From: Candidatus Ferrigenium bremense
GTDB lineage: Bacteria; Pseudomonadota; Gammaproteobacteria; Burkholderiales; Gallionellaceae
Reading direction: 5' to 3'
NCBI GenBank assembly: GCA_019449635.1
Contig: JAGRPI010000018.1
Coordinates: forward strand, 1-64,000
DNA length: 64,000 bases
This document shows, piece by piece, positions 1 through 27,686 of the stretch (the stretch's first letter is position 1; each line of letters starts with the position of its first letter). The translations under genes and the position numbers were made by a program. The notes beneath the pieces were generated by a model. The model was not told the DNA's origin and made no database searches. It was given only the letters and a program-made list of their open reading frames with translations.

Positions 1-160
1 ACACCTCGCCTTCCGAATATTGCTCTTTCATGACTGAATAAATCGTATTCCCTGCAGCTTTTGGAACATGCAGAAACAGTACGACCGGCGGTTTATCTAC
101 AGCATTGTCGTTGAGTTGTAGCCGGTTCGTTGTATCAGTATCTTCGGTAGGCAGGTACAT
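1..160 (-). CDS. Sulfotransferase family protein, N-terminal part (runs off the window)
   Basis: Only about the first 53 residues are inside the window. They read as a short polar leader followed by VVLFLHVPKAAGNTIYSVM. Strand-then-PKxxGxT is the 5'-phosphosulfate-binding loop of PAPS-dependent sulfotransferases (the family 2 / carbohydrate sulfotransferase group, where it is usually FxHIPKTAGT). By family knowledge it would move sulfate from PAPS to a sugar hydroxyl. I chose ATG at 160; a GTG two codons upstream is also possible, and neither has a clear Shine-Dalgarno. It follows the acetolactate-synthase-like gene by 37 nt in the same direction, so it is probably the last visible gene of that transcript. 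The acceptor cannot be told from this fragment, but the setting suggests the surface polysaccharide. Confidence 0.75.
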   Translation of the reverse strand, partial: MYLPTEDTDTTNRLQLNDNAVDKPPVVLFLHVPKAAGNTIYSVMKEQYSEGEV

Positions 161-197
161 AGTCACATTGTTTTGTTTCTTTTAAGGTAAGCAATTC

Positions 198-1988
198 TCA
201 GCGGGAACCATGCAGAGAAGCCGGCAGCGGTTGCACGATCATATTTTCCATGAACTCGTCCCTGGGCAGGAGAGGTTCGCTGTCTTCAATTGGATAACCG
301 AATTTGACCTGCGGAACTACGCGGTGTGACGATGGGATATTTACGTCACACAGGATCGGGCCATTCTCGCACAGAACCTCGTTCACCATCCGCAGCACGT
401 CTTCGTTATGTTTTAACTGGGTGGCCTTGATCCCATATGCTTTTGCCACATGCTGGAAATCGGGCATGCTGACCCCCCCCTCAGGCGATGAGCCGATGTA
501 GCTTGAATCCAGCCACTGATCCTGCGTTTGACGAATCATGCTATAGCCATCATTGTTGATAACGAAAATCCGGATATTGAGCTTGTAGTGAGCCAAGGTT
601 GCAAGCTCCTGGATATTCATTTGCAGCGCACCATCCCCTGTGATGCAGATCACACGCCGGGCGGGCTCGGCCAGTGCCGCTCCGATGCTTGCCGGGAGGG
701 CGTAGCCCATCGGCGTGTTATTGAATGCATGAAGGAAGCGCTGCGATTCCCGAAACGAGAAACCCTGCATCGCCCAAGCTAGGGCACAACCGGTGTCGCT
801 GACGATGATGTCTCCGGGTTGTGCGAATCGAGAAAGCGCCTCCATGAAAACATAAGGGTTGACCGCGTGCTCCTCGCGGTACTGCGGCTGGATAGCGGGA
901 TACTTATCCTGCCAGGCCGCTATTCTGTTTTGCCATGGATGGGTATCCGACAGTTCGACCCCGTCGAGTCTGGCGCATAGCTCACGGAGAAACTCCGCTG
1001 CGTCTATGCAGAATGGAAAATCGATATTGACGCCATGCGATTTGAATTTGCGCAACTCTGCAGGGTCGATATCGACTACAATTTTGCATGCCTGCCTTGC
1101 AAAGCTTGTAGGGGGGCTGCCCGTCTCGTGCGTATCCAGCCTGCTTCCAATTGCAAGCACGAGGTCTGCGTTCTGCACTGCGAAATTGCCGCATCGTGAC
1201 CCATGCGTCCCAAAAGTGCCAGCCAACTGTGGATAATCGTGGGGAAACATATCTACCATGGCCCACGTTGGAAGAACGGGGAAATTGAGCAGACGTAGCG
1301 CTTCCAGCAGTTCTTTCTCGGCATGTGCAAGACGCACCCCCCAGCCCACGATCACTACTGGCCGTTGTGCGCGTTGTATGGCGTCGATGCACCGTTCAAA
1401 ATTGTTTGTCCAGTCAAGTGTGCCCGCCGAAGGCGTTGGCGGACAAAAAGGGTCCAGGCTTTCGGGGTCGATCTGCTTCCTCTGCAGATCATCCGGTATA
1501 TCGACGAGAACCGGGCCTGGGCGGTCGCAACGTGCCAGGTAGACGGCTTTTTCAAGCTCTTTGCGGATGGTTTGCGGATCGGAGATCTTTACGGCATATT
1601 TTGTTATCGGGCCGCACATGTCCACTATATCCGTTTCCTGAAAGCCAAGTTGCCGGATACCCATATCTCCCTTGGACCGGAATGTGGCAACCTGCCCCGT
1701 AATGTATATTGCCGGCACGGAATCGTAGTAGGCACAACATATCCCGGTGATCAGGTTTGTCGCGCCCGGGCCGCTAGTTGCGACTGCTGCACCTAACTTG
1801 CCTGTTACTCTCGAATAGGCATCGGCCGCCATAGCCGCCGCCTGCTCATGATGGGTGAATATAATGCGCATATCCGGCCGGCCAGCGATGGCGTGAATGA
1901 GATGCAGTGATGCGCCGCCAGTAATCCCGAACACATGCCGAAGACCTTGGCTCGCCAAAAACTCAGCAACGTATTCCGCAAGTTTCAT
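198..1988 (-). CDS. TPP-dependent acetolactate-synthase-like enzyme (YerE-type candidate)
   Basis: 596 residues with the three-domain layout of the acetohydroxyacid synthase / pyruvate decarboxylase superfamily. The N-terminal pyrimidine-binding domain carries the TPP-activating glutamate (E48 in THHEQA) and TSGPGATN (71-78). A central domain follows. The C-terminal pyrophosphate domain has GDG at 451-453 and NND at 478-480, the metal/TPP motif. No regulatory small subunit (ilvH) or ilvC lies next to it, which argues against branched-chain amino-acid synthesis. In Yersinia, the related enzyme YerE uses pyruvate to add a two-carbon branch to a CDP-4-keto sugar; given this polysaccharide cluster, a similar role is my preferred inference. 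Its start overlaps the stop of the 67-residue gene upstream by 4 nt (ATGA), so the two are translationally coupled. Alternatives: a carboligase or decarboxylase of another 2-oxo acid. Confidence 0.8.
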   Translation of the reverse strand: MKLAEYVAEFLASQGLRHVFGITGGASLHLIHAIAGRPDMRIIFTHHEQAAAMAADAYSRVTGKLGAAVATSGPGATNLITGICCAYYDSVPAIYITGQVATFRSKGDMGIRQLGFQETDIVDMCGPITKYAVKISDPQTIRKELEKAVYLARCDRPGPVLVDIPDDLQRKQIDPESLDPFCPPTPSAGTLDWTNNFERCIDAIQRAQRPVVIVGWGVRLAHAEKELLEALRLLNFPVLPTWAMVDMFPHDYPQLAGTFGTHGSRCGNFAVQNADLVLAIGSRLDTHETGSPPTSFARQACKIVVDIDPAELRKFKSHGVNIDFPFCIDAAEFLRELCARLDGVELSDTHPWQNRIAAWQDKYPAIQPQYREEHAVNPYVFMEALSRFAQPGDIIVSDTGCALAWAMQGFSFRESQRFLHAFNNTPMGYALPASIGAALAEPARRVICITGDGALQMNIQELATLAHYKLNIRIFVINNDGYSMIRQTQDQWLDSSYIGSSPEGGVSMPDFQHVAKAYGIKATQLKHNEDVLRMVNEVLCENGPILCDVNIPSSHRVVPQVKFGYPIEDSEPLLPRDEFMENMIVQPLPASLHGSR

Positions 1989-2188
1989 AGAGCGACTGAA
2001 AATATCGAATGTGCGGGTAATTGCACTTGAGCGCTGCCCTTGGTATCAGAACAAGTCCAAGACATCGCCCTCTTTATACTGATGAGCGGCTTACCGTCAC
2101 GGGAAATGTTGGGAATGTCGTCCAGTTTCGGTACACACCGCCAATCAAAGTGGCGCACGAACAAGTTGGCAGAAATATGATTTTTCAT
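1985..2188 (-). CDS. Small translationally coupled protein of unknown function (67 aa)
   Basis: This frame starts with an ATG that overlaps the SDR stop as ATGA, and its own TGA overlaps the ATG of the TPP enzyme in the same way. A frame that fits exactly between two neighbours with a 4-nt overlap at each end is unlikely to be chance, and the same coupling is used throughout this cluster. The product begins MKNHISANLFVR and is mostly polar with no clear membrane segment. The part around KLDDIPNISRDGKPL loosely recalls the first strand of FdtA/WxcM-type cupin sugar isomerases, but at 67 residues it is far too short for a complete cupin. I do not recognise a family with confidence. It could be a small accessory protein or the remains of a longer gene. 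Confidence 0.45.
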   Translation of the reverse strand: MKNHISANLFVRHFDWRCVPKLDDIPNISRDGKPLISIKRAMSWTCSDTKGSAQVQLPAHSIFSVAL

Positions 2189-3012
2189 GGCTTCCACTCA
2201 TTGCGATAACGCCGCAACTTGTACATATCCTTGTCGCGGCATAATTTGTCTGTGAGTGCCTGGGTTTCCCAGGGATCATTAGGAATACTGAAGTTGCGGC
2301 CTCCAATAACGGTTCTGGGCTGTGCATCCAGCCAATCAAGGCCTGCAAGGATACGCTCCATTGGGACGAAGTTATTACCGCGCAACCTTTCGACGGTATT
2401 ATGGTAACCGTCTCCTGCCGCAGCCCCTGCTGAGAGCATCTCTTGATGAATACGCGTCTTAACCCAACCCGGCCCTATGATGACGCTCCGAATATCGGGT
2501 ATTTCGCTGTCCAAAAGTTCGCACATTTTTGTCAATGCGATTTTTGAAACGGTGTAAGCAGATAGGTTTTTCGGTGCGGAGTTTGATCCGCTACCGGCAC
2601 AAAACGCAACTAGCGCGCCATGGGGCGAATGCTTTATTCGCGATGGAAGCAACTTATGAAGGATCCTCATTTGATTGAGGAAGTTGATATGGATAGATTG
2701 ATCCCAAAGATCAAAATCACAGCTATCGAACGACTGTATCGGAGTCATTGTCCCGGGAAGCAAAACAAGCGCATCCCAACATTGAATGTTTGCAAGGATC
2801 TGTCGCGCGGCATTGTCAACAGAACCCTTTTGCGTAAAGTCACATTCAACAAGAAAGGCGCCAGCGGCCTCAAGTTCTCTTACTTGCTCAGAGCGGGCGC
2901 GATATGTACCAACAACCTTGTCTCCGCGGGATAGCCAGTAATTGGCCACTGCATGGCCTATATCACTAGAGGCTGCAATGACAATTTTTGATGCAATTAA
3001 ATCCGTCGCCAT
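2185..3012 (-). CDS. Short-chain dehydrogenase/reductase (SDR)
   Basis: 275 residues, normal for a classical SDR. The N-terminal Rossmann motif is altered: ASSDIGHAVANYW takes the place of TGxxxGIG. The catalytic pair is present as YTVSK (YxxxK), preceded by a serine-rich strand (CAGSGSNS). It probably reduces a keto group, or oxidises a hydroxyl, on a sugar or small alcohol intermediate with NAD(P). It is the first gene of a coupled set with the 67-residue protein and the acetolactate-synthase-like enzyme. That suggests it acts on the product of the TPP enzyme, as YerF reduces the YerE product in yersiniose synthesis; this is inference. It is transcribed divergently from the zinc alcohol dehydrogenase across 168 nt, where the promoters for both must lie. 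Confidence 0.75.
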   Translation of the reverse strand: MATDLIASKIVIAASSDIGHAVANYWLSRGDKVVGTYRARSEQVRELEAAGAFLVECDFTQKGSVDNAARQILANIQCWDALVLLPGTMTPIQSFDSCDFDLWDQSIHINFLNQMRILHKLLPSRIKHSPHGALVAFCAGSGSNSAPKNLSAYTVSKIALTKMCELLDSEIPDIRSVIIGPGWVKTRIHQEMLSAGAAAGDGYHNTVERLRGNNFVPMERILAGLDWLDAQPRTVIGGRNFSIPNDPWETQALTDKLCRDKDMYKLRRYRNEWKP

Positions 3013-3180
3013 CTTTGCTGGTAGCCTTGCTGATATAATTTTGTGAGTTTATCACTTGCATATATTTAGCGAAACCGCGCAAATTGAATTTCCCCGGCTG
3101 CAGCCTGGCGTTCCATCATGAGCCAATAAGCTGCTGGGCTCCGAACTTGAATCTGCCGATAATTTAAATGAGGTCCCATT

Positions 3181-4221
3181 GTGAAAGCAGCAGTGCTCGT
3201 TAGTCTTAATAAACCCCTGGATATTGCTTTGGATGTAGAACTACCTGTCCTGCGGCGCGGGCAGGTGCTCGTGAAGCTCGCTTACAGCGGCGTATGCCAT
3301 AGTCAAATCATGGAGGCACGCGGGCGACGCGGGGATGACCCATGGCTGCCCCACTTGTTGGGGCACGAAGGCTCCGGCCGAGTGATCCAGATTGGGGAAG
3401 GAGTGACCAAGGTAGCGCCTGGCGATATGGTTATCCTCGGCTGGATTAAAGGGGACGGCATCGAGGCAGGTGGCGCCCAGTATCAGCGTGCGGGCAAAAC
3501 CGTTAATGCCGGTGGCGTCACCACTTTCAATGAATATGCGGTCGTGTCTGAAAATCGTGTCGTCATGCTGCCCGAGGGAGTACCCCTTGATGTGGCAGTG
3601 CTGTTCGGTTGTGCAATCCCCACGGGTGCCGGTATCGTTTTAAATGAACTTCAGCCACGTGAGAATGCAAGCTTTGCGGTATTCGGATTAGGCGGCATTG
3701 GCTTGAGTGCGCTCATGGCAACGCAGCTTTTTACACCAAAAACAGTGATCGCCATTGACATCAACGAAGAGAAGCTCGCACTGGCACGTGACTTTGGTGC
3801 AACCCATACCATCAACTCGCGCAATGAAGATGCTCTCGCAGAAATCCTGCGCATCGTGCCCGGTGGTGTGGATTACAGTGTGGATGCGTCAGGTCATACG
3901 AACGTTATTGAGACAGCATTCAAGGCGGTTCGCCGCAACGGTGGGCTGTGCGTGTTTGCATCCCATCCGGAGCAAGGGGCGCAGATAAAAATTGACCCTT
4001 ACGAACTCATCTGCGGCAAGCAAATACGTGGCAGCTGGGGTGGTGCGGTACGCCCGGACAGGGACATCCCGCGTTTTGCCAAACTATACACGGATGGGAA
4101 GCTGCCATTGCAGCGCCTGATTTCCAAGAGCTACAGCCTTGACCAGATCAATGCGGCGCTTGACGATCTCGAAGGTGGGTACGTTGGCCGCCCCCTGATC
4201 AAAATTGACCCGACAATTTGA
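3181..4221 (+). CDS. Zinc-binding alcohol dehydrogenase (MDR family)
   Basis: 346 residues with the GroES-like fold first and the Rossmann fold second. Catalytic zinc ligands appear to be C39 (SGVCHSQ), H62 with E63 (GHEGSG) and C144 (FGCAIPTGAG). The nucleotide motif is GLGGIG at 169-174, followed by an acidic residue in AIDINEEK, which suggests NAD(H). The four cysteines of the structural-zinc lobe are missing: the region reads GAQYQRAGKTVNAGGV. In spacing it otherwise resembles class III alcohol dehydrogenases. It starts at GTG with GAGG a few bases upstream. It is the only plus-strand gene in the polysaccharide cluster and faces the TIGR04372-like glycosyltransferase gene tail to tail. 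The substrate is unknown; a dehydrogenase acting on an aldehyde or ketone intermediate of the neighbouring TPP enzymes is possible. Confidence 0.85.
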   Translation: MKAAVLVSLNKPLDIALDVELPVLRRGQVLVKLAYSGVCHSQIMEARGRRGDDPWLPHLLGHEGSGRVIQIGEGVTKVAPGDMVILGWIKGDGIEAGGAQYQRAGKTVNAGGVTTFNEYAVVSENRVVMLPEGVPLDVAVLFGCAIPTGAGIVLNELQPRENASFAVFGLGGIGLSALMATQLFTPKTVIAIDINEEKLALARDFGATHTINSRNEDALAEILRIVPGGVDYSVDASGHTNVIETAFKAVRRNGGLCVFASHPEQGAQIKIDPYELICGKQIRGSWGGAVRPDRDIPRFAKLYTDGKLPLQRLISKSYSLDQINAALDDLEGGYVGRPLIKIDPTI

Positions 4222-4230
4222 AGGGCATCA

Positions 4231-5540
4231 ACTGAGGTTCACCTAATTTATCCTTCCAGTAGTTTTTGGTGTCGGCGCAAAAAAAGCGCGCCTGTGCGCC
4301 CTCCGGCGCCATATCCATAATGACCGGGACGCCACAGTTTCCTAAATTTTGCCTGCAACTCTTCATCGATCAAGTCGTAGTGCCATGTTTTGGCTATCAC
4401 CCCATGCATTTCTTGCACGAGTTCGCAGATTTCCTCGGACGAGTTGTCCAGTGGCACAATCCCGGTGAGCCTGTATTGGCTTGAAAGACGAAAGTCTGCC
4501 AGCGGCTGGCTGAATATTGATGGGAAAGAAATGGGGTGATTATCGGGGGGCTGGCTTAGAAGTTTTGGAATGGAAATGTCAATCGGTGAGTACCCCAAGG
4601 TGGATACGGGAATCATGTTAGCCAAGGCGCACGGCACACCGAAAATGCTGGCTAATATCCATAGCCCTGAAGTATTTCCAACGAAGTATCTACACCCCGC
4701 GCACAACAAAACATCCGCCTGCTCAGAACGCATAACATGGTGCGCATAATCCACCACCCCGGGGATTGGCGGCAAAGGTTTCATGGTTGGGTCGCCCATC
4801 CTTATGCACCACCCCCCTCGGCTTACCACGAATTGCATCGCACCAATAAGGCTATCAGCATCCGCATTACGGTGAGAATGGATTGCTTCATCCTGCGGGG
4901 AAAAACCGCCTTCCCGATTATGAAAACAGACATACCAGGCATCTGCCGGCAGCCCCAATTCCATTAGCAGTGCACGCTCACATTTATGATCAGCATCAGT
5001 CAAGGACAGCAGTGGAGGTCGAGTTCCCCATGCAACATTTACTTCATAATAACGGGCATTTTTCCCGAAAGAGAGTATGTAGTCGCTAACATCATGAACC
5101 ATGAATCCCCTCAAAGTGAGAATTCTCAGGAATGAGCAGGCTAATGGATGACTGATCACATGAAAATATGGCTTCCAGTAATTCAGCAAATGTGAGTTGG
5201 CCACCTTATCTTTAGGCGCGAGCACAAACCAATAGCGCCTAGACGGAAGCCGCCCCAATCGGCGTTCTTTCTCGAAACAGTCGAATTCTGCGGTAAGGTG
5301 GCCAATACGGTCGGTAAAAAATGCGACGCGACGGAACCCCAGAAAGTGTCCAAGTGCCGATATTGGGATCAATACGAACCATGCTAGGGTTGTGAAGGTT
5401 TTTTTTGCTATCTTGGATGCGATCCAGGTAAAACCCTTTCCTTTCACACGGCTTGCAAGCAACTCAACTGCACAACGCCATTTATCTAGATTGCGCAAGC
5501 TCATGTATTAACTTGGTGTTATTCAAGGTTGAACCTCAGT
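4231..5540. repeat. 11-bp inverted repeat flanking one glycosyltransferase gene
   Basis: ACTGAGGTTCA at 4231-4241 is repeated as its exact reverse complement TGAACCTCAGT at 5530-5540. The two copies sit just outside the glycosyltransferase gene 4248-5504. The arms match over 11 bases and the match does not extend far. Chance cannot be excluded, but the placement suggests a recombination scar or a small inserted cassette. Confidence 0.35.
4248..5504 (-). CDS. Putative glycosyltransferase, TIGR04372-like
   Basis: 418 residues. A short hydrophobic stretch (about 37-55) is followed by DRIGHLTAEFDCF (65-77), which I associate with the TIGR04372 family of putative glycosyltransferases found in polysaccharide clusters. 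Further on come VCFHNREGG, a GDP-containing turn (RMGDPTMKPL) and VGNTSGLWILASIFGVPCALANM. This last stretch looks like the C-terminal donor-binding region of a GT-B fold: a T/S-G turn followed by a helix and a small hydrophobic strand. Donor and acceptor are unknown. It lies 130 nt downstream of the E1 beta gene, faces the alcohol dehydrogenase, and is flanked by an 11-bp inverted repeat. The family call is from memory of the motif pattern. Confidence 0.65.
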   Translation of the reverse strand: MSLRNLDKWRCAVELLASRVKGKGFTWIASKIAKKTFTTLAWFVLIPISALGHFLGFRRVAFFTDRIGHLTAEFDCFEKERRLGRLPSRRYWFVLAPKDKVANSHLLNYWKPYFHVISHPLACSFLRILTLRGFMVHDVSDYILSFGKNARYYEVNVAWGTRPPLLSLTDADHKCERALLMELGLPADAWYVCFHNREGGFSPQDEAIHSHRNADADSLIGAMQFVVSRGGWCIRMGDPTMKPLPPIPGVVDYAHHVMRSEQADVLLCAGCRYFVGNTSGLWILASIFGVPCALANMIPVSTLGYSPIDISIPKLLSQPPDNHPISFPSIFSQPLADFRLSSQYRLTGIVPLDNSSEEICELVQEMHGVIAKTWHYDLIDEELQAKFRKLWRPGHYGYGAGGRTGALFLRRHQKLLEG

Positions 5541-5634: not shown

Positions 5635-6690
5635 TCAAAATGGCCCCGTAAACCAATCACCTGGCACATCGTGTGGATGATTACGCTGTGGCATTAACTC
5701 CAGTACGTCGGATTTTGCGCCAACCATCTTGGCTACTTTAGCAGCAACATGCTCGGCTCGAATGTGGTAATTCTCAGTCAATGTTGGGCTCGTAGCTTCT
5801 GGATAATCAGGCATGGCAAGGCGATCCGGCGCTGCCTTGAGCAACCCCCAATATTCGGTACTCATGCGCGCCACGATCTCTCCGGCGACGCTGCCGGTGG
5901 TAAAGCCCGTGTCCAAGGCAAGCAGACGACCGGTTCGCCGGACAGATGCGCGTATGGTGTCCCAATCGATTGGGCGTACCGAACGCAGATCAATGAGATC
6001 GCAGGTAATGCCATGCCCGGCCAAAAAATCACATGCCCGCAGCGCTTCGATAGTCATGTAGGACATCGCTGTGATCGTGATATCAGCCCCCTCACGTAAG
6101 GTACGCGCCTTGCCAATCGGCACCCGGTAATCACCCGCTGGAACTTCACCCTTCAAGTTGTGCAGCCATCGATGTTCAAGGTAAATCACTGGGTTGCCAT
6201 CATAGATAGAAGACAGCAGCAGCCCCTTGGCATCATCCGCCATCGCAGGCATGACCACTTTGAGACCTGGTATGTGTGCAAACCACGCCTGTAAATTTTG
6301 CGAGTGGGTTGGACCCTGCCCCCATCCGCGGCCAAGAATCATGCGTACGGTCAGTGGAACTGTGCGGCGTCCTCCAAACATAAAATGCCATTTGGCGGCG
6401 TTGTTTACCAGCTGGTCCATGGACAACAAGGCAAAATCAAGCCGCTGATGGCTCATCACCGGGCGTAACCCATAAAGAGCCGCACCAACGCCGATGCCGG
6501 TCATTGCATTCTCGGACGTGGGCATATCAAAAACGCGTTCTGGTCCAAACTTTTCCTGAAGTCCCAGCGTAGTTCCAAATATCCCCTTGGGGTCGTCGGT
6601 TCCAAGTCCATAACAGATCACCGAGGAATCCTGCTCCATGGCAATCGACAAGGCTTCGTTTATGGCTTGTGCAAAAGTTTTTATAGCCAC
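5635..6690 (-). CDS. 2-oxoacid dehydrogenase E1 component, beta subunit-like
   Basis: 351 residues, the usual size for the E1 beta subunit of pyruvate/acetoin-type dehydrogenases. It starts AIKTFAQAINEALSIAMEQD, continues with FDMPTSENAMTGIGVGAALYGLRPV and RMILGRGWGQGPTHSQ, and has a transketolase C-terminal domain with ITAMSYMTIEAL and LIDLRSVRPIDWDTI. With the alpha subunit it forms an alpha2beta2 TPP enzyme that decarboxylates a 2-oxo acid. No E2 lipoyl acyltransferase or E3 lipoamide dehydrogenase is nearby, so a complete dehydrogenase complex is unlikely here. The pair could instead hand the two-carbon unit to a keto sugar, as proposed for AviB1/AviB2 in avilamycin synthesis; that is inference. 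The start is GTG, 35 nt after the alpha gene. Confidence 0.85.
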   Translation of the reverse strand: MAIKTFAQAINEALSIAMEQDSSVICYGLGTDDPKGIFGTTLGLQEKFGPERVFDMPTSENAMTGIGVGAALYGLRPVMSHQRLDFALLSMDQLVNNAAKWHFMFGGRRTVPLTVRMILGRGWGQGPTHSQNLQAWFAHIPGLKVVMPAMADDAKGLLLSSIYDGNPVIYLEHRWLHNLKGEVPAGDYRVPIGKARTLREGADITITAMSYMTIEALRACDFLAGHGITCDLIDLRSVRPIDWDTIRASVRRTGRLLALDTGFTTGSVAGEIVARMSTEYWGLLKAAPDRLAMPDYPEATSPTLTENYHIRAEHVAAKVAKMVGAKSDVLELMPQRNHPHDVPGDWFTGPF

Positions 6691-6725
6691 TGTAATGGTT
6701 CCATGATTAAAACGATTTGGCGGTA

Positions 6726-7694
6726 TTATTGCGCGTACAGATGAGTAAACGCTTCCTCGGCTAACGGAAAAGGTGCAGCATCCGCGGCCTCGAAGGCGGC
6801 AGCAATTTCCGAACGTATGTTATCTAACATCTGCTCAATATCTGCATGACTAATCATTCCATCGCGAAGCAACGCTGCCTCCAGCCGTGGAATAGGATCC
6901 CTGGCTTTCCATTCCAGAAACTCGGATTCACTACGATATCCAATATCGTTGTCATAATATGGACCGCAATGCTCGCGCCAGCGATAAGTCGCAAATTCGA
7001 GAAACACCGGACCGTTGCCGGCTCGAATCGAAGAAATCGCGTCCGTCACACATGCATAAACCGCTGCAGCATCGTTGCCATCGCAGTGCCGTGCTGTAAT
7101 ACCCATACCCTGGGCCATCCGCCAAATTTCCCGGCCAGCTGGCTGGCGCACGTGCAACGGCGAGTATACGGAATACAGATTGTTCTCACAGACAAAAAGA
7201 ACCGGGAGACTCTTAAGTGCTGCGAAGTTGACTGATTCAGCAAACACCCCAGCCTCAACAACTGCATCACCATGGAATACACAACTGACCTGGTCGGTTC
7301 CTTTCAATTTAATTCCATAGCCAAGCCCGACCCCGACTGGGACTGTTCCACCCACAATGGCAGTACTGCCGACAAAACCGACGCTCTCGTCAACAAGATG
7401 CATTGATCCGCCCTTGCCTCCCGAGCACCCAGTTGCTTTACCATAGATTTCGGCAATCATTTGGGGCAGATTGCCACCTTTGCCGAGATAGTGAGCGTGT
7501 GCACGATGCCCGCTAACCGCGAGATCATCTTTGCGCAACGCCAAACCAACAGCGGCTGCCACCGCTTCCTGACCTATTGAAAGATGGGTCGGGCAGCGTA
7601 TCTTGCCTTCGGGATAGCGGATTGCGATCTCTTCCTCCACAAGGCGGATGCGCAGCATCTGTTGCAGAAGCAAGGTGTCATTAGTTTGGTTCAT
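6726..7694 (-). CDS. 2-oxoacid dehydrogenase E1 component, alpha subunit-like
   Basis: I start this at the ATG that overlaps the methyltransferase stop as ATGA, giving 322 residues; a longer frame exists but would extend into that gene. Family landmarks: HLSIGQEAVAAAVGLAL (37-53), SGHRAHAHYLGKGG (61-74), GKGGSMHL (93-100), FVGSTAIVGGTVPVGVGLG (107-125), then the TPP motif GDA at 142-144 (GDG is usual) ending in ENN at 170-172. This is the catalytic alpha subunit partner of the beta gene that follows. E1-only pairs inside sugar gene clusters are not housekeeping pyruvate dehydrogenase. The upstream run of epimerase, SIS, dehydratase-like and methyltransferase genes points to sugar-nucleotide work. 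Confidence 0.85.
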   Translation of the reverse strand: MNQTNDTLLLQQMLRIRLVEEEIAIRYPEGKIRCPTHLSIGQEAVAAAVGLALRKDDLAVSGHRAHAHYLGKGGNLPQMIAEIYGKATGCSGGKGGSMHLVDESVGFVGSTAIVGGTVPVGVGLGYGIKLKGTDQVSCVFHGDAVVEAGVFAESVNFAALKSLPVLFVCENNLYSVYSPLHVRQPAGREIWRMAQGMGITARHCDGNDAAAVYACVTDAISSIRAGNGPVFLEFATYRWREHCGPYYDNDIGYRSESEFLEWKARDPIPRLEAALLRDGMISHADIEQMLDNIRSEIAAAFEAADAAPFPLAEEAFTHLYAQ

Positions 7695-8350
7695 GGAATA
7701 AACCAGAAGTAATCGCCGGTGTAGCCCACCTCCTTGAAGAAGGCCTTCCATTCATCCACGTGCATGATCGTTCGTGCAGTCAGGTTCCACGCCATCATGC
7801 GCTGTTTTTCTTCGTCGGTATGATAGGCATCGACGGTGATGTATGCCCCCTTGCGCTTCACGCGCTCAATCTCTTTTAATGCTTGCGCCAGCTCATCGCG
7901 TTCCAAGTTATGTATTGTGTTAATCGAAATCACCACATCAAAGGACTGGTCCGGGAAAGGCAACTTTGTTGCGTTGGCAACCTGCACATGGGGCTTCATA
8001 TCCTCAACTGCATTGTCGATGGCGTATTGAGAGACATCAATGCCTTTCACTGCAATACCCGGAATAAGCTGAGTGAAATCGTACATCATAAATCCCTTGG
8101 CGCACCCAACATCGAGTACCGAGCTATTCGGCGTAAGCCCCCAATGCGCCTGGAAAGTGGGGATTACCGGTTGCCAAAATCTGGGGAAATAGTTGAACCC
8201 ACCATAACCGTGGCGCCGGTCGCCATCAAAAAATTCCTTACCAAATTGCCGTGCAATACGACGGTCTTCCTCTGTCTTGGATTGCCCGCGTTCATCTACA
8301 TTACGCTTTGTCTTAGGGTAATTTACGAGTAAATCAATTTCTTGCCCCAT
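7691..8350 (-). CDS. Class I SAM-dependent methyltransferase
   Basis: 219 residues. Motif I is SSVLDVGCAKGFMMYDF, the acidic end of the second strand is KGIDVSQYAID, and motif IV is FDVVISINTIHNLERDE. An unusual N-terminal part (residues 1-70) contains RRHGYGGFNYFPRFWQPVIPTF, which probably forms part of an acceptor-binding cap. SAM-dependent O- or C-methylation of a sugar or a sugar nucleotide is likely, but the target is not readable. The gene follows the dehydratase-like SDR after 15 nt and overlaps E1 alpha by 4 nt, so it is firmly inside this operon. Confidence 0.8.
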   Translation of the reverse strand: MGQEIDLLVNYPKTKRNVDERGQSKTEEDRRIARQFGKEFFDGDRRHGYGGFNYFPRFWQPVIPTFQAHWGLTPNSSVLDVGCAKGFMMYDFTQLIPGIAVKGIDVSQYAIDNAVEDMKPHVQVANATKLPFPDQSFDVVISINTIHNLERDELAQALKEIERVKRKGAYITVDAYHTDEEKQRMMAWNLTARTIMHVDEWKAFFKEVGYTGDYFWFIP

Positions 8351-8365
8351 TGCTGATGCTCCTTT

Positions 8366-9364
8366 TCAAGGTTTATGTATGTAATCAAATGGCTGCTTTT
8401 TCAATTCGTTCAAGTTTGACTCTACCCAGGCAATGCAGTCATCAAGACCAGCATCCAGAGAAATCTGGTCCTGCCAACCGAGTGTCTCGCGAAGTTTTGT
8501 GCTATCGAGCGAATACGTCGCATCTTTTCCAAGCCGCTCGCCGACCACTTCCACATGCGCGTTGAAGTCCACTCCCATCTTGTGACAAATGCGCTCCACC
8601 AATTCACGCACCGTGACAATTTCATTGGTTGAAATATGGTAGGTTTCTCCGAGCGCGCCATCGGTCGCAATTTTCCATGTTGCGCTAGAAACATCCTGCA
8701 TGTGAATGAATGACCGCTGGGAATGGCCGCCGCCGTGAAGCTGCAGCTTACGGCCCAGCTTGATGAACAAAATGGTGCGCGGAATGATCCGGTAAAGCTG
8801 CTGCCCCGGTCCATAGACATTCGCCGCCCTTGTGAACACTACCGGGAAACGATAAGCCTCAAAAAAAGTGCGCAGGCTCATATCGCTTGCGGCTCTTGAA
8901 ACCGCGTAGGGCGTGCTTGGATTAAACGGCGCTGCTTCTTTGATAAAACCTGTGGTGCTGCCATAGACTTCCGGCGTGGTGACATGCACATATTTCTTGA
9001 GGAAATCCCTGTGCCTCAGCTGCTCGTGAAACCTGACGGTCGATACGGCGTTGGTCATGAACCAATGGTCCGGATTCTTCCAGCTTTCGGCGACCATGCT
9101 CTGCGCGGCGAAATTGACCACATAGCCCGGACGCTCCGTATCAATGATTTTCATCAAACGGTCAAGGTCGTAATTCAGATCGCACTGGAAGAACCTGAAT
9201 TGCTCCGCATTGGGCTGCCAGCGGTAGGGAAGAAAGCACTGGTGGGATTCGGGTGAACGGCTGGTACCAACCACATCCTGACCTTGGGACAATAGATAGG
9301 CGATGAAACTTGCACCAGAAAATGAATTACTGCCGATGATAAAAAATTTCTCTTGCGACATCAT
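8366..9364 (-). CDS. NDP-sugar epimerase/dehydratase-like SDR with altered active site
   Basis: 332 residues of the extended SDR family, closest in pattern to dTDP-glucose/GDP-mannose 4,6-dehydratases. The Rossmann turn is GSNSFSGASF. Two catalytic places look unusual. The T-D-E (or T-S-E) dehydratase triad reads T-P-E in VTTPEVYGS. The YxxxK pair reads Y-A-V-S-R, with the lysine replaced by arginine (codon AGA seen directly). The C-terminal substrate part has RTILFIKLGRKLQLHGGG and RSFIHMQD. A loss of 4,6-dehydratase chemistry, or a shift to another reaction, is possible. Shine-Dalgarno AGGAAG lies 6 nt before the first of two ATGs. It sits between the SIS gene and a methyltransferase in the E1-containing operon. 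Confidence 0.75.
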   Translation of the reverse strand: MMSQEKFFIIGSNSFSGASFIAYLLSQGQDVVGTSRSPESHQCFLPYRWQPNAEQFRFFQCDLNYDLDRLMKIIDTERPGYVVNFAAQSMVAESWKNPDHWFMTNAVSTVRFHEQLRHRDFLKKYVHVTTPEVYGSTTGFIKEAAPFNPSTPYAVSRAASDMSLRTFFEAYRFPVVFTRAANVYGPGQQLYRIIPRTILFIKLGRKLQLHGGGHSQRSFIHMQDVSSATWKIATDGALGETYHISTNEIVTVRELVERICHKMGVDFNAHVEVVGERLGKDATYSLDSTKLRETLGWQDQISLDAGLDDCIAWVESNLNELKKQPFDYIHKP

Positions 9365-9373
9365 TAATTCTTC

Positions 9374-9958
9374 CTAAGTCGGTTGATTCTTGTTAAGCCA
9401 CTGCACGATCATATGACCCAGGATGAGCTGCATATCTTCGCTGATCTGCATGTCATCTATCTCAAAGTGAATGGCAACATCGGCAACTTCTTTTGCCTTG
9501 CCCCCTGAATAGCCCAAGATGGCATAGCTTTTGACTCCGCAGGCACGCGCTTGCTCGAGCGCATGAATGATATTCGGTGAATTGCCGCTGCCAGAGAACA
9601 CGATCAACACATCTCCCGCACGCCCTTGAACGGCCAGCTGGGCGGAATAAATGTGTTCATAGCCGACATCATTTGCAAGGCAGGTCATTACAGAAGCATT
9701 GGCAGAGAGCGCGTTCACACGCAACCCTGACCCAAGCTTTTTTGAAACACCGTAGAGGAAATCATTGGCCAAATGCAGAGCATTGCCTGCGCTGCCTCCA
9801 TTGCCGCAGATAAAAACCTGCCGGCCATCTTTCCAGCAAGACCTCAACTCTTTAGCGAGGTCCTCAACCAGTTCCCAATCGCAACCGTTCAAGACACCAC
9901 CTAGCCTCTCGGCATAGCTGGCAAAATGTACCCGAGGCAATCCGGAAGAGGCACTCAT
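9374..9958 (-). CDS. SIS-domain protein, GmhA/DiaA-like
   Basis: 194 residues from the ATG that overlaps the epimerase stop as ATGA. It is a single sugar-isomerase (SIS) domain: VFICGNGGSAGNALHLANDF binds the phosphosugar, followed by VMTCLANDVGYEHIYS and VLIVFSGSGNSPNIIHAL. The pattern matches sedoheptulose-7-phosphate isomerase GmhA. By eye-alignment to E. coli GmhA the two catalytic residues differ: Glu65 aligns with Asp in HLANDF, and His180 aligns with Gln in SEDMQLILGH. So it may bind a phosphosugar without performing the heptose isomerisation, or use another substrate. No heptose kinase, phosphatase or guanylyltransferase is seen in the window. The role is left open. Confidence 0.75.
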   Translation of the reverse strand: MSASSGLPRVHFASYAERLGGVLNGCDWELVEDLAKELRSCWKDGRQVFICGNGGSAGNALHLANDFLYGVSKKLGSGLRVNALSANASVMTCLANDVGYEHIYSAQLAVQGRAGDVLIVFSGSGNSPNIIHALEQARACGVKSYAILGYSGGKAKEVADVAIHFEIDDMQISEDMQLILGHMIVQWLNKNQPT

Positions 9959-10893
9959 GATGCACTCTTTTGTTGCATCCACTTCAGGTTATACCAACGC
10001 TCTTCGTCCTTGAGTTCGCCACTGCGATATTTTGCGATGATTTCCTGGATCGCATCCTCGACAGTTTTCTTTGGCTGGAAACCCGTTGCCAGAAGCTTGT
10101 CCGAGTTTACGCGGTAAGAACGCGGGTCATTCGATGCGGTAACGACAAGCTCGGCAGGCACATGCCTTACAACCCGCTGTGCAATCTCCATAATGGAAAT
10201 GTTCTCAAAGCCCGCGTTGTAAATGCCAGTGACATCGGGACGATCCAGCAGGAACATATACAGGTCCGTGATGTCATCAATGTGGATATTGGGGCGTGTT
10301 TGATTGCCGCCAAAGATTGTAATTTTCCCCTTGGTAAGCGCTTGCATCGTGAGCATGTTCACCGACACGTCCAGCCTCATACGGGGTGAAAAGCCGCAGA
10401 CGGTTGCAGGGCGTACGATTTGCACTATCATGTCGTTGGCATAACTCAACAACACGCGCTCGCCAACCATCTTGGTCTTGTTGTATTCCGAAATCGGCTT
10501 CAAAACCAGGTCTTCGGTTACTTGCGGCTCATCCTTGACACCATAAACACTTCCAGATGATGCGTAAATGAACCGCTTGACCCCTACGCGCGCCGCTTTA
10601 TCGGCTAACTGCATTGTTGCAAGGGCGCTAACCTCCCATGTCAACTGGGGATCCAAATCGCCACATGGGTCATTGGCCACCGATGAAAGATGGATAATCG
10701 CATCTACACCCGTTAGATCGATAGCATCAATATCCCTTACGTCACCCTGAATGACCGTCAGGTTAGGATGTGGTTTCAAAAAATTACCGAACCACATGAT
10801 ATCAAGGCCAATCACTTCATGACCCTGATTCAATAATTTCGGTACCAGTACCGATCCCTTATAGCCACATGCGCCTGTTACTAACAGTTTCAT
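9955..10893 (-). CDS. NAD-dependent epimerase/dehydratase (extended SDR)
   Basis: 312 residues. Rossmann motif GACGYKGSVLVP (7-18) with an acidic VIGLDIMWFGN; YASSGSVYG supplies the catalytic serine region; YNKTK is the YxxxK pair; a C-terminal segment has GGNQTRPNIHIDDITDLY. The general fold is that of UDP-glucose 4-epimerase/UDP-hexose dehydratases. The exact reaction cannot be told. It is the first gene of the run epimerase-SIS-dehydratase-methyltransferase-E1 alpha-E1 beta, with 4-nt or short gaps throughout. Upstream is a 297-nt gap, so this operon probably has its own promoter there. Confidence 0.8.
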   Translation of the reverse strand: MKLLVTGACGYKGSVLVPKLLNQGHEVIGLDIMWFGNFLKPHPNLTVIQGDVRDIDAIDLTGVDAIIHLSSVANDPCGDLDPQLTWEVSALATMQLADKAARVGVKRFIYASSGSVYGVKDEPQVTEDLVLKPISEYNKTKMVGERVLLSYANDMIVQIVRPATVCGFSPRMRLDVSVNMLTMQALTKGKITIFGGNQTRPNIHIDDITDLYMFLLDRPDVTGIYNAGFENISIMEIAQRVVRHVPAELVVTASNDPRSYRVNSDKLLATGFQPKKTVEDAIQEIIAKYRSGELKDEERWYNLKWMQQKSAS

Positions 10894-23226: not shown

Positions 23227-24069
23227 CTACAAAATGGAATCCAAGTACCGTCGATCGCCCCAAAAAGCCATCGGCTCATAATCCGGGTAGGGGTAAAAAC
23301 CAAGATTCAGGTCTATGTCCCAGCCGTTGTCGTGTAGCCACTGCTCCACCAGCCTGCGCACCGATACCGGTTTCCCCGAGCAGATATTGATAATTCCGGT
23401 GTCGCGCTGCGACATTGCCAGTCGCACAGTCTGACGAGCGATTTCGGTTATATGCAGGTAGTCGCGCAATTGCTCGCCGCCCGACATGTTGAACACCTTG
23501 TCGCCGCGCAATACCGCTTCCTTCAGTTTCGGATAAAGTGAGGTGGCAGCCTGGCCCTCGCCATGCATATAAAAAAGTCTTGCCCAGGCAAGATTGAATG
23601 GTCGATTCGATTTCAGATATTGCAGCTGCTGGCGCAGCGCGTTTTTGGCATAGCCATAAGGATTGTTCGGTTGCGGCAGCATCTCCTCCGAAAGTGCGCC
23701 GGACTGCATGCCATATTCAAAGCAAGTACCGGTTACCAGCATTGAGGATAATCCATCCTCTACCAGAGACTTAAGAAACTGATATTGCCTCGGGAGTTCG
23801 GTCTCGAAATGGTGCAGAGATTTGTAATTGGGCAGGCCATCCCAAGCCAGATGTATCAAAGCATCCGGCCTGCCTAAATGCTCGAAGCAATTTTGCGGCG
23901 GATTGGAAATATCCATTTCCACCATGCTGACCGTCGCATCAATCCCGTTCAGGCGTGCTGCATCGCGGGTAACGGCAACTATATCGACCTCGTGGGTGCG
24001 CAGTGCGGCAAGGACATGCCTTCCCACGAATCCGCTTGCTCCTGTGACAGCAATTTTCATCCGGTTCAC
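23227..24069 (-). CDS. NAD-dependent epimerase/reductase of the CDP-sugar module
   Basis: 280 residues of extended SDR type: GASGFVGRHVLAAL as nucleotide-binding motif, ALIHLAWDGLPNYKS, GTCFEYG, NPYGYAK (YxxxK) and RDYLHITEIARQ. Comparable proteins reduce the 4-keto group of CDP- or dTDP-4-keto-6-deoxy sugars as the last biosynthetic step. It follows the C-methyltransferase with a 4-nt overlap (GTGA); an ATG three codons on is the alternative start. Its place directly behind cytidylyltransferase, dehydratase, epimerase and C-methyltransferase makes it the likely finishing reductase of that pathway. This is inference from order. Confidence 0.78.
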   Translation of the reverse strand: MNRMKIAVTGASGFVGRHVLAALRTHEVDIVAVTRDAARLNGIDATVSMVEMDISNPPQNCFEHLGRPDALIHLAWDGLPNYKSLHHFETELPRQYQFLKSLVEDGLSSMLVTGTCFEYGMQSGALSEEMLPQPNNPYGYAKNALRQQLQYLKSNRPFNLAWARLFYMHGEGQAATSLYPKLKEAVLRGDKVFNMSGGEQLRDYLHITEIARQTVRLAMSQRDTGIINICSGKPVSVRRLVEQWLHDNGWDIDLNLGFYPYPDYEPMAFWGDRRYLDSIL

Positions 24070-25292
24070 GTTATTTCAATTGAGGGGACTGCCGTTACAA
24101 AACGCCCACCCCACTCGCGAATATAGTCGAGCTGATGGGTCACTTCTGTGCGCAAATTCCACGGCAGGATCAGAATGTAATCTGGCCTGGTTAATTTGAG
24201 TTGAGCCTCGTCAACTATCGGAATGCGGCAACCCGGGAGGAATTTGTCTTGTTTGGCAGGGTTGCGATCCACCACATAAGGCAATAGGTCCGGACGCACG
24301 CCGGCATAGTTCAACAGGGTATTACCTTTGGCCGCCGCTCCGTATCCGACAACACGTTTGCCGTCTCGCTTAGTTTCCAACAAAAAGGTCAGCAAATCAT
24401 TTTTTACCTTGTCCGCCTTGGCCTGGAAATTTGCGTAATAGCCAGAGGTGGCGATGCCCATCGCCATTTCCCTTGCCAGCAACTCGGCCACTCTTGGGCT
24501 AGCTTCGTGCGTGCCCTTGTCGCTGCGCTGTGCATATACGCGCAAACTTCCGCCGTGTGTGGGCAATTCTTCCACATCGAACACTGTCAGTCCGTTCGCT
24601 GCAAAAATGGTTTTGACAGCGGTGAGCGACAAATAGGAATAATGCTCATGGTAGATGGTGTCAAACTGGTTCTGTTCAACAAGATTAAGCAGATGGGGAA
24701 ACTCGAACGTAGCCACGCCCGCCGGTTTGAGCAGCACGGCAAATCCGGCCACGAAATCGTTGATATCCGGCACATGGGCCAGCACATTATTGGCAGCCGT
24801 AAGGTCGGCTTGTTTTCCTTGATCGACAAGCTGTCTTGCCAATTTGACACCGAAGAACTCTTCGACAATCTCTATGCCTTTGGCGCGCGCCGCATTCGCG
24901 GTGCTGGTGGTTGGCTCGATCCCCAAGCAGGGAATGCCGCGCGCCTTGGCGAATTGCAGCAGATAACCGTCATTCGCGGCCACCTCGACGATATGGGAGT
25001 GTGCGCCCAGCGCAAATCGCTGCGCCATATCCGTAACATATTTTTCGGCATGCTTGAGCCATGTCGTCGAGAAAGAGCTGAAGTAGGCGTAGTCGGCCGA
25101 GAATAACTCGTCGGCTCCAGCGTAATCCTCGGTCTGCACTAGCCAGCATTGGGAACAAACCAGCACACGCAGAGGAAAATGCTTTTCCGGCGCATGCATG
25201 GTTTGCTTCGTCAGATAGGCGTTGGACGGCGGCGCCGAACCCAGGTCCACCAAGGGCAATGTTAATTCAGTCTGGCAATGACGGCACTTCAT
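24066..25292 (-). CDS. Sugar C-methyltransferase (TylC3/NovU/TcaB9-like)
   Basis: 408 residues, the family's usual size. The N-terminal zinc ribbon has C3, C6, C46 and C49. The SAM-binding motif is IVEVAANDGYLLQFAK (101-116) with GIEPTTSTANAA after it. The segment IYHEHYSYLSL (212-222) contains the conserved H-E-H that in TcaB9-type enzymes acts on the enolised keto sugar. A C-terminal Rossmann-like domain has VVGYGAAAKGNTLLNY. These enzymes put a methyl branch on C3 of an NDP-4-keto-6-deoxyhexose. Located between an RmlC-like epimerase and a reductase, with 4-nt overlaps on both sides, it should act on the CDP-4-keto sugar made by the two genes upstream. Confidence 0.88.
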   Translation of the reverse strand: MKCRHCQTELTLPLVDLGSAPPSNAYLTKQTMHAPEKHFPLRVLVCSQCWLVQTEDYAGADELFSADYAYFSSFSTTWLKHAEKYVTDMAQRFALGAHSHIVEVAANDGYLLQFAKARGIPCLGIEPTTSTANAARAKGIEIVEEFFGVKLARQLVDQGKQADLTAANNVLAHVPDINDFVAGFAVLLKPAGVATFEFPHLLNLVEQNQFDTIYHEHYSYLSLTAVKTIFAANGLTVFDVEELPTHGGSLRVYAQRSDKGTHEASPRVAELLAREMAMGIATSGYYANFQAKADKVKNDLLTFLLETKRDGKRVVGYGAAAKGNTLLNYAGVRPDLLPYVVDRNPAKQDKFLPGCRIPIVDEAQLKLTRPDYILILPWNLRTEVTHQLDYIREWGGRFVTAVPSIEIT

Positions 25293-25849
25293 ACGGCAAT
25301 CCCCTGAAAATTCTGTTCAATCAACTTGTGGTTGCGATCTCTTTCCGAAATCTCGGTAGTCGCCAGCGGCCAGGCAATGCCGAGCCTCGGGTCTGCAGCA
25401 TTCAGCGCCCCCTCTGATTCCGGATGGTAGGCCGCCGAGTGCAAATAGATCAATTCGCAGTCCTCGGTCATGGTCTGGAAGCCGTGGGCAAATCCTTCAG
25501 GAATGAGCAGGCTTTGGCGGTTCCGCGCGGAGAGTAACACACCATGCCAATGCAAAAAGGTGGGCGAACCGCGGCGCAGGTCGACAGCAACATCGAATAT
25601 TTCGCCGTGCAGGCAACTCACCAGCTTGGTCTCTGCAAAGGGTGGATGCTGGAAGTGCAACCCGCGCACCGCCCCCTTGTTTCTGGTCAGCGTGTGGTTG
25701 ATCTGAGCAATGGGTTTGCTTAGGCCAACTTCGCGAAATTCATCGGCGCAGTAAAAGCGCGACAGAAATCCACGATGGTCTTCAATGACCTTTCGCTGCA
25801 CCAAGGTCAGGCCGGCCAGCGGGGTGGGAATGAAATCGAATCGTGCCAT
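25289..25849 (-). CDS. RmlC-like NDP-4-keto-sugar epimerase
   Basis: 186 residues, cupin fold, the normal size for dTDP-4-dehydrorhamnose 3,5-epimerase. VRGLHFQHPP includes the catalytic histidine (H65), FDVAVDLRRGSPTF and LIPEGFAHGFQTM are standard RmlC segments, and a tyrosine (Y141 in HSAAYHPE) sits where the catalytic Tyr is expected. No rmlA, rmlB or rmlD is seen in the window. The gene is 2 nt downstream of CDP-glucose 4,6-dehydratase, so its substrate is more probably CDP-4-keto-6-deoxyglucose than the dTDP sugar. It would epimerise C3 and/or C5 before or around C-methylation. Confidence 0.83.
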   Translation of the reverse strand: MARFDFIPTPLAGLTLVQRKVIEDHRGFLSRFYCADEFREVGLSKPIAQINHTLTRNKGAVRGLHFQHPPFAETKLVSCLHGEIFDVAVDLRRGSPTFLHWHGVLLSARNRQSLLIPEGFAHGFQTMTEDCELIYLHSAAYHPESEGALNAADPRLGIAWPLATTEISERDRNHKLIEQNFQGIAV

Positions 25850-25851
25850 GC

Positions 25852-26916
25852 CTAATCGACCCCGCCTGCCGCCTGATATTGGGCGATTTGCGACAATGTC
25901 AATGCGTACATATCTTCGCCATTACGCCACGCCCGATGCCATTCCAGCGTCTTTTGTAGAGCAGCCTGCAGCCGCCAACGCGGCTCCCAGTTCAACAGGC
26001 CATGAGCCTTACTGCTATCCAACTTTAAGTAATGCGCCTCATGCGGTTGCGGCGCTTCGTCGCATTGCCATTTCACGTCCTGCTGCATTTCTGCCAAACG
26101 TTCGACAATCCAGCGCACCGAGCGGGCATCTTCATCGCTTGGCCCAAAATTCCATGCCTCGGCAAACTGCCTGCCTGCGGTGTAAAGTCGCTCGGCCAAC
26201 ATCAAATACCCGGACAGCGGTTCCAGCACATGCTGCCAAGGGCGTGTGGATTGTGGAGAGCGAATTTTCAACATCACACCGGCATCCATGGCACGCAAAA
26301 AATCGGGCAGCAAGCGGTCTTCCGCCCAGTCACCGCCGCCGATGACATTGCCTGCACGAGCACTCGCCAGAGCGATGCCCGCCGGCTCCAGAAAGGAACG
26401 ACGATATGCGGCAGTCACCAGCTCTGCGCAACCCTTGCTGCTGGAATAAGGGTCGAACCCGCCCAGCGCCTCATTTTCGCGGTAACCCCACACCCATTCC
26501 CGATTTTCATAGCACTTGTCCGTGGTGACATTCACTACTGCTTTCACACCGGGCGTGGCGCGCGCGGCTTCGAGCAGATGCACCGTGCCCATCACATTGA
26601 CGGCATAGGTTTCCACTGGTTGCGCGTAGGAATAGCGCACCAGAGGTTGAGCAGCTAGATGGAAAATGATTTCCGGTTGCGCCACTTGCATAGCTCGGCG
26701 CAGCCTGTTCGCATCGCGGATATCTGCGATTTCACTGCTCATCATGCCTTTGCCAATTTCGGCTGCGGTAAACAGATTCGTCTTGGTCGGCGGAGTCAGC
26801 GCATAGCCGTGCACTTCGGCCCCCATGGATTGCAGCCACAGCGATAACCAGCCGCCCTTAAAGCCTGTATGCCCGGTTAAAAAGACGCGCTTGCCGCGCC
26901 AGAAGTCGGCGTTCAC
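25852..26916 (-). CDS. rfbG: CDP-glucose 4,6-dehydratase
   Basis: I start this at the GTG overlapping the cytidylyltransferase stop (GTGA), with GGAGG about 8 nt upstream. That gives 354 residues beginning [20 protein letters not shown], the family's usual N-terminus. A longer frame would run 40 nt into rfbF. Landmarks: [14 protein letters not shown] as NAD motif, [10 protein letters not shown] supplying the T-D-K active-site strand, [12 protein letters not shown] with YxxxK, and [20 protein letters not shown], which is characteristic of CDP-glucose dehydratases. It makes CDP-4-keto-6-deoxyglucose, the entry to CDP-linked deoxy and branched sugars. The DNA between the genes is only 2-4 nt, so the module is strictly co-transcribed. 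Confidence 0.93.
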
Positions 26917-27686
26917 TTCCACACCCTCCAAGGGGCTTTTCCGCTTTGCCAAAGATCTTCAAGGTGGTTTTTGTCACGCAGGGTATCCATCGGTTGCCAG
27001 AAGCCGTTATGCTCGTAAGCCTGCAACTCCCCTTGGGCAGCCAGTTTGCTGAGCGGTTCGCCTTCCCATGAGCTGGCGTCATCAGTCACAAGGTCAAGGC
27101 AGCTTGGCGATAGCACGAAGAAGCCGCCATTGATCCAGCCTCCGTCACCCTGTGGCTTCTCGATGAAGCCGCGCACCCTATTCCCATCCATACTCAGCGC
27201 ACCATAACGTCCGGGTGGCTGCACCGCCGTTACGGTGGCGCGCTTCCCATGCTGTCTGTGGAAATTTACCAGTGCACTTATATCGACATTCGCCACACCG
27301 TCCCCATAAGTGAAGCAAAACGCATCTTCGTCCTTCACATAATTGGTGACGCGTTTCAAACGCCCGCCTGTTAGCGTATTTTCACCGGTATCAACCAAGG
27401 TGACACGCCACGGCTCGGCATTGCGTTGATGCACTTCCATTTTGTTATGCTGCATGTCGAAGGTCACGTCCGACATGTGCAGAAAGTAGTTGGCAAAATA
27501 TTCCTTGATGATGTAGCCCTTATAGCCGCAGCAAACGACGAAGTCGTTAATGCCATGCGCTGAATAAATTTTCATGATGTGCCAGAGTATCGGCCTGCCG
27601 CCGATCTCCACCATGGGCTTGGGACGAACTGTCGTTTCTTCGCTGATCCGCGTCCCCAATCCGCCTGCAAGAATGACTGCTTTCAT
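26913..27686 (-). CDS. rfbF: Glucose-1-phosphate cytidylyltransferase
   Basis: 257 residues, identical in length class to Salmonella Rfb[19 protein letters not shown] and [22 protein letters not shown] are the nucleotidyltransferase signatures; [19 protein letters not shown] and [14 protein letters not shown] are specific to the CTP-using enzyme. It forms CDP-glucose from CTP and glucose-1-phosphate, and so commits glucose to the CDP-sugar branch. The ATG overlaps the stop of fcl (ATGA). The presence of this gene decides that the downstream dehydratase, epimerase and C-methyltransferase work on CDP-linked sugars. Confidence 0.95.

Follow-up and report, generated by a model that had tools for sequence, protein, structure and literature searches.

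An E2-free E1 alpha/beta pair in a polysaccharide gene cluster of Candidatus Ferrigenium bremense as a putative sugar-branching carboligase

Genes around the E1 pair

Contig JAGRPI010000018.1 of Candidatus Ferrigenium bremense (GCA_019449635.1) carries adjacent genes for the alpha and beta subunits of an E1-type ThDP enzyme; the window that we analysed is the stretch from position 1 to 64,000 of this contig (64,000 nucleotides), and the features that concern us are listed in Table 1. Both E1 reading frames are complete and retain their catalytic residues. Upstream of E1 alpha, in the same direction, lie genes for an epimerase/dehydrogenase-like protein (EPI), a SIS isomerase, a dehydratase-like SDR and a methyltransferase, with ATGA overlaps at two junctions, methyltransferase-E1 alpha and EPI-SIS; no E2 or E3 gene was found near the pair. 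A preliminary description of the locus had reported this arrangement of complete, E2/E3-free subunits with ATGA coupling behind the four other genes, and the reading frames and overlaps are confirmed here. Absent from that description were the genes downstream, at 198-5504: a TIGR04372 glycosyltransferase, a Zn alcohol dehydrogenase (Zn-ADH), a further SDR and a second ThDP enzyme. Homologues of these genes recur together with the E1 pair.

Table 1. Features of the window around the E1 pair
Feature	Coordinates	Strand	Remarks
YerE-like ThDP enzyme	198..1988	minus	best solved relative JanthE (8rph)
SDR	2185..3012	minus	accompanies the YerE-like gene in 7/8 SDR loci
Zn alcohol dehydrogenase (Zn-ADH)	3181..4221	plus	candidate branch reductase; in 19/51 clade loci
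TIGR04372-family glycosyltransferase	4248..5504	minus	directly downstream of E1 beta
E1 beta	5635..6690	minus	351 aa, GTG start; GRGWGQGPTHSQ motif, C-terminal tail HDVPGDWFTGPF; family models, AlphaFold model
E1 alpha	6726..7694	minus	322 aa from ATG at 7694; GD...ENN ThDP motif; catalytic His (REHCGP) retained
Class I SAM methyltransferase	7691..8350	minus	ATGA-coupled to E1 alpha; homologues in 30/51 clade loci
dTDP-glucose-4,6-dehydratase-like SDR	8366..9364	minus	subfamily with Arg for the YxxxK lysine
SIS isomerase, GmhA-like	9374..9958	minus	ATGA-coupled to EPI
EPI, NAD sugar epimerase/dehydrogenase-like SDR	9955..10893	minus	best solved relative 6vo6

The dehydratase-like SDR has YxxxR in place of YxxxK, at a position where R, H and K vary among relatives; because arginine replaces the lysine, this protein may not be a redox enzyme. 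Elsewhere in the window, a row of genes at 24066-27686 (CDP-glucose cytidylyltransferase, 4,6-dehydratase, RfbC-like epimerase and a C-methyltransferase-like gene) probably forms a separate pathway to a C-methyl-branched CDP-sugar, and the gene at 1-166 (minus strand), whose N-terminus is sulfotransferase-like (FLHVPKAAGNT), is cut by the contig start.

The E1 pair itself has the alpha/beta fold and the ThDP site of the E1s of pyruvate dehydrogenase (PDH), BCKDH and acetoin dehydrogenase. Among Pfam and NCBIfam models it matches E1_dh (6.5e-60) as well as Transket_pyr and Transketolase_C, and it scores under the curated cut-offs for PDH (282 vs 393.85 bits for TIGR03182; 273.7 vs 321 for NF006667). 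The invariant residues include beta Glu60, beta His129 and alpha His242, which by alignment are presumably the catalytic Glu, the catalytic His and the loop His of PDH. The AlphaFold model of E1 beta has a predicted fold that matches that of PDH E1 beta, with the C-terminal tail as a low-confidence region, and the closest solved folds and sequences to the pair are PDH/BCKDH E1s, not transketolase. Fold, ThDP motif and catalytic residues are thus held in common with PDH E1; the window pair differs in having no E2, in the E1 beta loop (GRGWGQGP vs GxGxxAAA), in its extra tail and in falling into a separate clade.

The host genome (2.4 Mb, 95% complete) was searched for components that could serve such an E1. 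The one other strong E1_dh match is SucA, no other E1 alpha of the alpha/beta type was found in this 95% complete genome, and the only two E2 genes lie on contig C25, beside SucA, and on contig C8, beside AceE. Both E2 genes are thus accounted for by AceE and SucA, and the window pair has neither an E2 in its operon nor a free E2 in the genome.

Phylogeny and gene context of the E1 lineage

An unrooted IQ-TREE phylogeny was computed for 66 taxa from concatenated alpha and beta sequences without the tail columns. The window pair falls into a clade of E1s from glycan clusters (support 100/97), and this clade, together with E1s from antibiotic clusters and four other orphan pairs, is split from all E2-linked E1s with 100/100; the antibiotic-cluster E1s in the tree are actinomycete pairs recognised by gene content. 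The closest relative of the window pair is that of Rhodopseudomonas sp. BR0M22, at 69% across the concatenated alignment. The branching order within the clade disagrees with the phylogeny of the organisms, which suggests that the pair has been transferred horizontally.

Three antibiotic-cluster relatives were compared, and again their cluster types rest on gene content. Two, from a survey of 395 actinomycete genomes plus 343 of one family, belong to deoxysugar clusters: one E1 pair (L182) lies with a polyketide synthase, a glycosyltransferase and RmlA- and RmlB-like genes, the other (L204) with a glycosyltransferase and RmlB- and RmlC-like genes. A third pair, also of the tailed type (L141, 10977-13023), sits in a lankacidin-like cluster on plasmid pSGRIFU1 of Streptomyces griseofuscus. 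Common to these three and to the window clade are the E1 beta loop GRGWGQG[PA]xHSQ, Arg83 and Arg174, an E1 beta end in GP[FY], and GDxxxE and REHxGP in E1 alpha; E2-linked E1s mostly have the loop GxGxxAAAQHSQ, and the tail occurs in none of those tested. Nearly all clade members with a complete gene end in D-x-P...F-x-G-P-[FY], and Pau12, at 345 aa, is similar in length to the tailed E1 betas (PMC4425429).

An E1 beta profile run against bacterial and archaeal genomes gave 80 loci, 51 of which group with the window, from about 12 phyla; the other 29 served as controls. Nucleotide-sugar genes are present at 49/51 clade loci vs 1/29 controls (Fisher p 4e-18), a comparison to be read with the loci partly related and not fully independent, and with controls drawn from the same scan rather than from a random sample of E1s. 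An AceF-like E2 occurs at 0/51 clade loci vs 6/29 controls; lipoyl-like motifs turn up at two of the 51, probably by chance. The preliminary description had raised the question how often its six-gene order recurs; as a set, the two E1 genes and those for EPI, SIS, the methyltransferase and the dehydratase-like SDR are found together at 12/51 loci. That description had also named two outcomes that would speak against its reading, clustering with true PDH or acetoin E1s and a lack of co-occurrence with sugar genes; the tree and the survey gave neither. Within the phylum of the window, about 20 of 398 sampled genomes contain a clade member.

Stand-alone E1 pairs beside nucleotide-sugar genes have precedents among the alphaKADH2 enzymes of antibiotic pathways, namely KbDH, the aldgamycin pair, Pau11/Pau12 and AviB1/AviB2. 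KbDH, of the kibdelomycin pathway, couples pyruvate with ketones in vitro; the role of the aldgamycin enzyme is supported by feeding and knock-out experiments (PMC12247030). The window pair resembles them in standing E2/E3-free among sugar genes and in grouping with antibiotic-cluster E1s as identified by gene content; its clade differs in being a separate lineage (100/97), in occupying surface-glycan and flagellin loci of many phyla and in having heptose-type partners. A 2025 review places E1-type (alphaKADH2) sugar branching mainly in antibiotics and assigns branching in LPS to YerE-like enzymes (PMC12247030), and our search of the open-access literature returned nothing relevant on E1 pairs at loci for O-antigen or flagellin. 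The glycan-linked E1s apparently form a large, undescribed lineage that would extend alphaKADH2 chemistry.

The proposed reaction and its alternatives

The explanation that we consider probable, from gene context and phylogeny, is that the E1 pair is an E2-independent ThDP carboligase that transfers an acetyl unit to a nucleotide sugar bearing a ketone, perhaps one derived from a heptose. The alpha2beta2 enzyme would use pyruvate, or another 2-oxo acid like it, as donor: decarboxylation would leave a two-carbon acyl anion, which would be joined to the keto group of the activated sugar. The product would carry a C-acetyl branch, and Zn-ADH may in turn reduce that branch. Gene context and phylogeny support well the idea of the preliminary description that the pair is a stand-alone carboligase in a sugar pathway; as for its octose-type product, the partner genes point rather to a nucleotide sugar of the heptose type.

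Variation among the clade loci bears on this proposal. EPI occurs at 0/10 loci with a radical-SAM protein vs 32/41 others (p 7e-6), a mutual exclusion that matches what would be expected of two alternative routes to a ketone. The partners of the E1 pair thus vary, ten clade loci having a radical-SAM protein and no EPI, which we count against the carboligase explanation. At L074, L079, L082, L088, L091 and L099, a radical-SAM/SPASM protein is encoded next to the E1 pair instead of EPI.

It is unlikely that the pair is instead a transketolase- or DXS-like synthase that opens the pathway, which would join a two-carbon unit to an aldose or aldose phosphate and so supply an unusual ketose phosphate to the SIS isomerase. 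The SIS, PfkB kinase and nucleotidyltransferase genes that accompany the pair would fit such a synthase, as would the fold that E1 beta shares with transketolase and DXS, but the closest solved structures and sequences are PDH/BCKDH E1s, the relatives in antibiotic clusters stand beside NDP-deoxysugar genes, and some clade loci have a transaldolase besides the E1 pair. The chemistry is a further difficulty: with pyruvate as donor the product would be a 1-deoxyketose, which a GmhA-type isomerase cannot convert to an aldose.

Quite improbable, in our estimate, is an oxidative acyl transfer to some carrier, by which the pair would make an N-acyl or O-acyl substituent with no carbon-carbon bond. 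Lipoyl carriers are the natural acceptors of E1 acyl groups, amide-substituted sugars are common, and DegT aminotransferase pairs are found at several related loci; against this stand the lack of an AceF-like E2 at all 51 clade loci, where the lipoyl-like motifs of two loci are probably fortuitous, and the relatives with the same marks beside deoxysugar genes, such pairs being known to form carbon-carbon bonds (PMC12247030). Very improbable indeed, and ruled out at the sequence level, is a genuine E1 of PDH, branched-chain or acetoin dehydrogenase that would rely on E2 and E3 encoded elsewhere in the genome and lie in the cluster by chance. Although the family models name a PDH E1 (under cut-off), both E2s of the 95% complete genome adjoin their own E1, the tree sets the pair apart from the E2-linked side and the sugar-gene context is kept across about 12 phyla.

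A candidate acceptor sugar and a second carboligase

For the carboligase proposed above, a heptose-derived 4-keto sugar is the acceptor that we favour, with less than even confidence, because the partner genes (EPI, SIS and, at some loci, a transaldolase beside the E1 pair) point there. The best solved relative of EPI is 6vo6 (130 bits; the next reaches 88), which we take for Cj1427, a C4-dehydrogenase that acts on GDP-heptose and depends on alpha-ketoglutarate, and the nearest relatives of SIS are phosphoheptose isomerases. Campylobacter jejuni Cj1427 has been characterised as such a C4-dehydrogenase, and in the GDP-heptose pathway of that organism (GmhA, HddA, HddC, Cj1427) a SIS isomerase, a kinase, a nucleotidyltransferase and the dehydrogenase lead to a 4-keto NDP-heptose (PMC10680097). 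Homologues of all four steps, GmhA-like isomerase, C1 kinase, nucleotidyltransferase and C4-dehydrogenase, are present here, each of them distant; the kinase is of the PfkB type, and the E1, YerE-like and Zn-ADH steps are not described in the C. jejuni pathway. By analogy, and more tentatively than for the E1 step, the NDP-heptose may come from the SIS isomerase, the CTP_transf-PfkB kinase and the nucleotidyltransferase, with the ketone perhaps made by the Cj1427-like dehydrogenase. In this genome the homologues of the kinase (61%) and of the nucleotidyltransferase (50%) are neighbours on contig C8, within a polysaccharide cluster other than that of the E1 pair.

An L-2-hydroxyglutarate-oxidase-like gene lies close to the kinase and nucleotidyltransferase genes on contig C8 (L150, 13979-15190), and one is found near SIS on plasmid pDMC1 of Solidesulfovibrio magneticus (L140). 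The idea that such an oxidase always accompanies the Cj1427-like step was rejected, its occurrence being limited to the C8 cluster and one other locus; bradyrhizose as the product was dropped for want of evidence.

The Rhodopseudomonas relative brings these genes together in one module (L055), in the order SIS, EPI, dehydratase-like, methyltransferase, E1 alpha, E1 beta, Zn-ADH, CTP_transf-PfkB, nucleotidyltransferase, SDR and YerE-like. Flagellin genes flank the module on both sides, and one TPR/GT41 glycosyltransferase is present. Because the module is conserved between flagellin genes with a glycosyltransferase of the GT41 type, the whole set suggests the synthesis of one sugar that would be attached to flagellin; and since the module of the closest relative has this position, O-antigen is not the sole destination of the sugar. 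The Rhodopseudomonas locus offers a compact system for finding it.

The last gene of this module has its counterpart in the second ThDP enzyme of the window, which is nearer to YerE-like enzymes than to acetolactate synthase: among solved structures it scores 391 bits with JanthE vs 292 with the best acetolactate synthase. JanthE, itself YerE-like, transfers acyl units to ketones (PMC12188165). We propose that the E1 pair works in the manner of YerE, ErwE and JanthE, in which a 2-oxo acid and a keto sugar yield a C-branched sugar of a surface glycan. These YerE-like enzymes consist of one chain and fall into the ThDP decarboxylase superfamily; the E1 pair is of another ThDP superfamily. Zn-ADH pairs with the methyltransferase at 18/19 Zn-ADH loci (p 7e-5), and the YerE-like gene with the SDR at 7/9 and 7/8 loci, respectively (p 2e-6), co-occurrences that we read as two ligase-reductase pairs. 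In the genome of the window, the YerE-like enzyme and its SDR would then add and reduce a second acyl branch.

Taken further, these observations raise the possibility, which we offer tentatively, of a widespread and undescribed module in which the E2-free E1 pair branches an NDP-4-keto-heptose to give a C-branched nonose or larger sugar for surface glycans and flagellin, with a second, YerE-like branch in some genomes and hence two unrelated ThDP carboligases acting on one sugar. By this survey, branching of the E1 type may be common among the surface glycans and flagellins of about a dozen phyla, Prochlorococcus and Pelagibacter included, and public annotations such as 'E1 component subunit alpha' and 'transketolase C-terminal domain' in loci of this kind may mask a sugar enzyme. 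Such enzymes can be recognised in a simple way by their tail and loop motifs. At L035, L040, L041, L044, L048, L050 and L052-L054, from related genomes, the alpha and beta subunits are fused into a single protein of about 650-700 aa.
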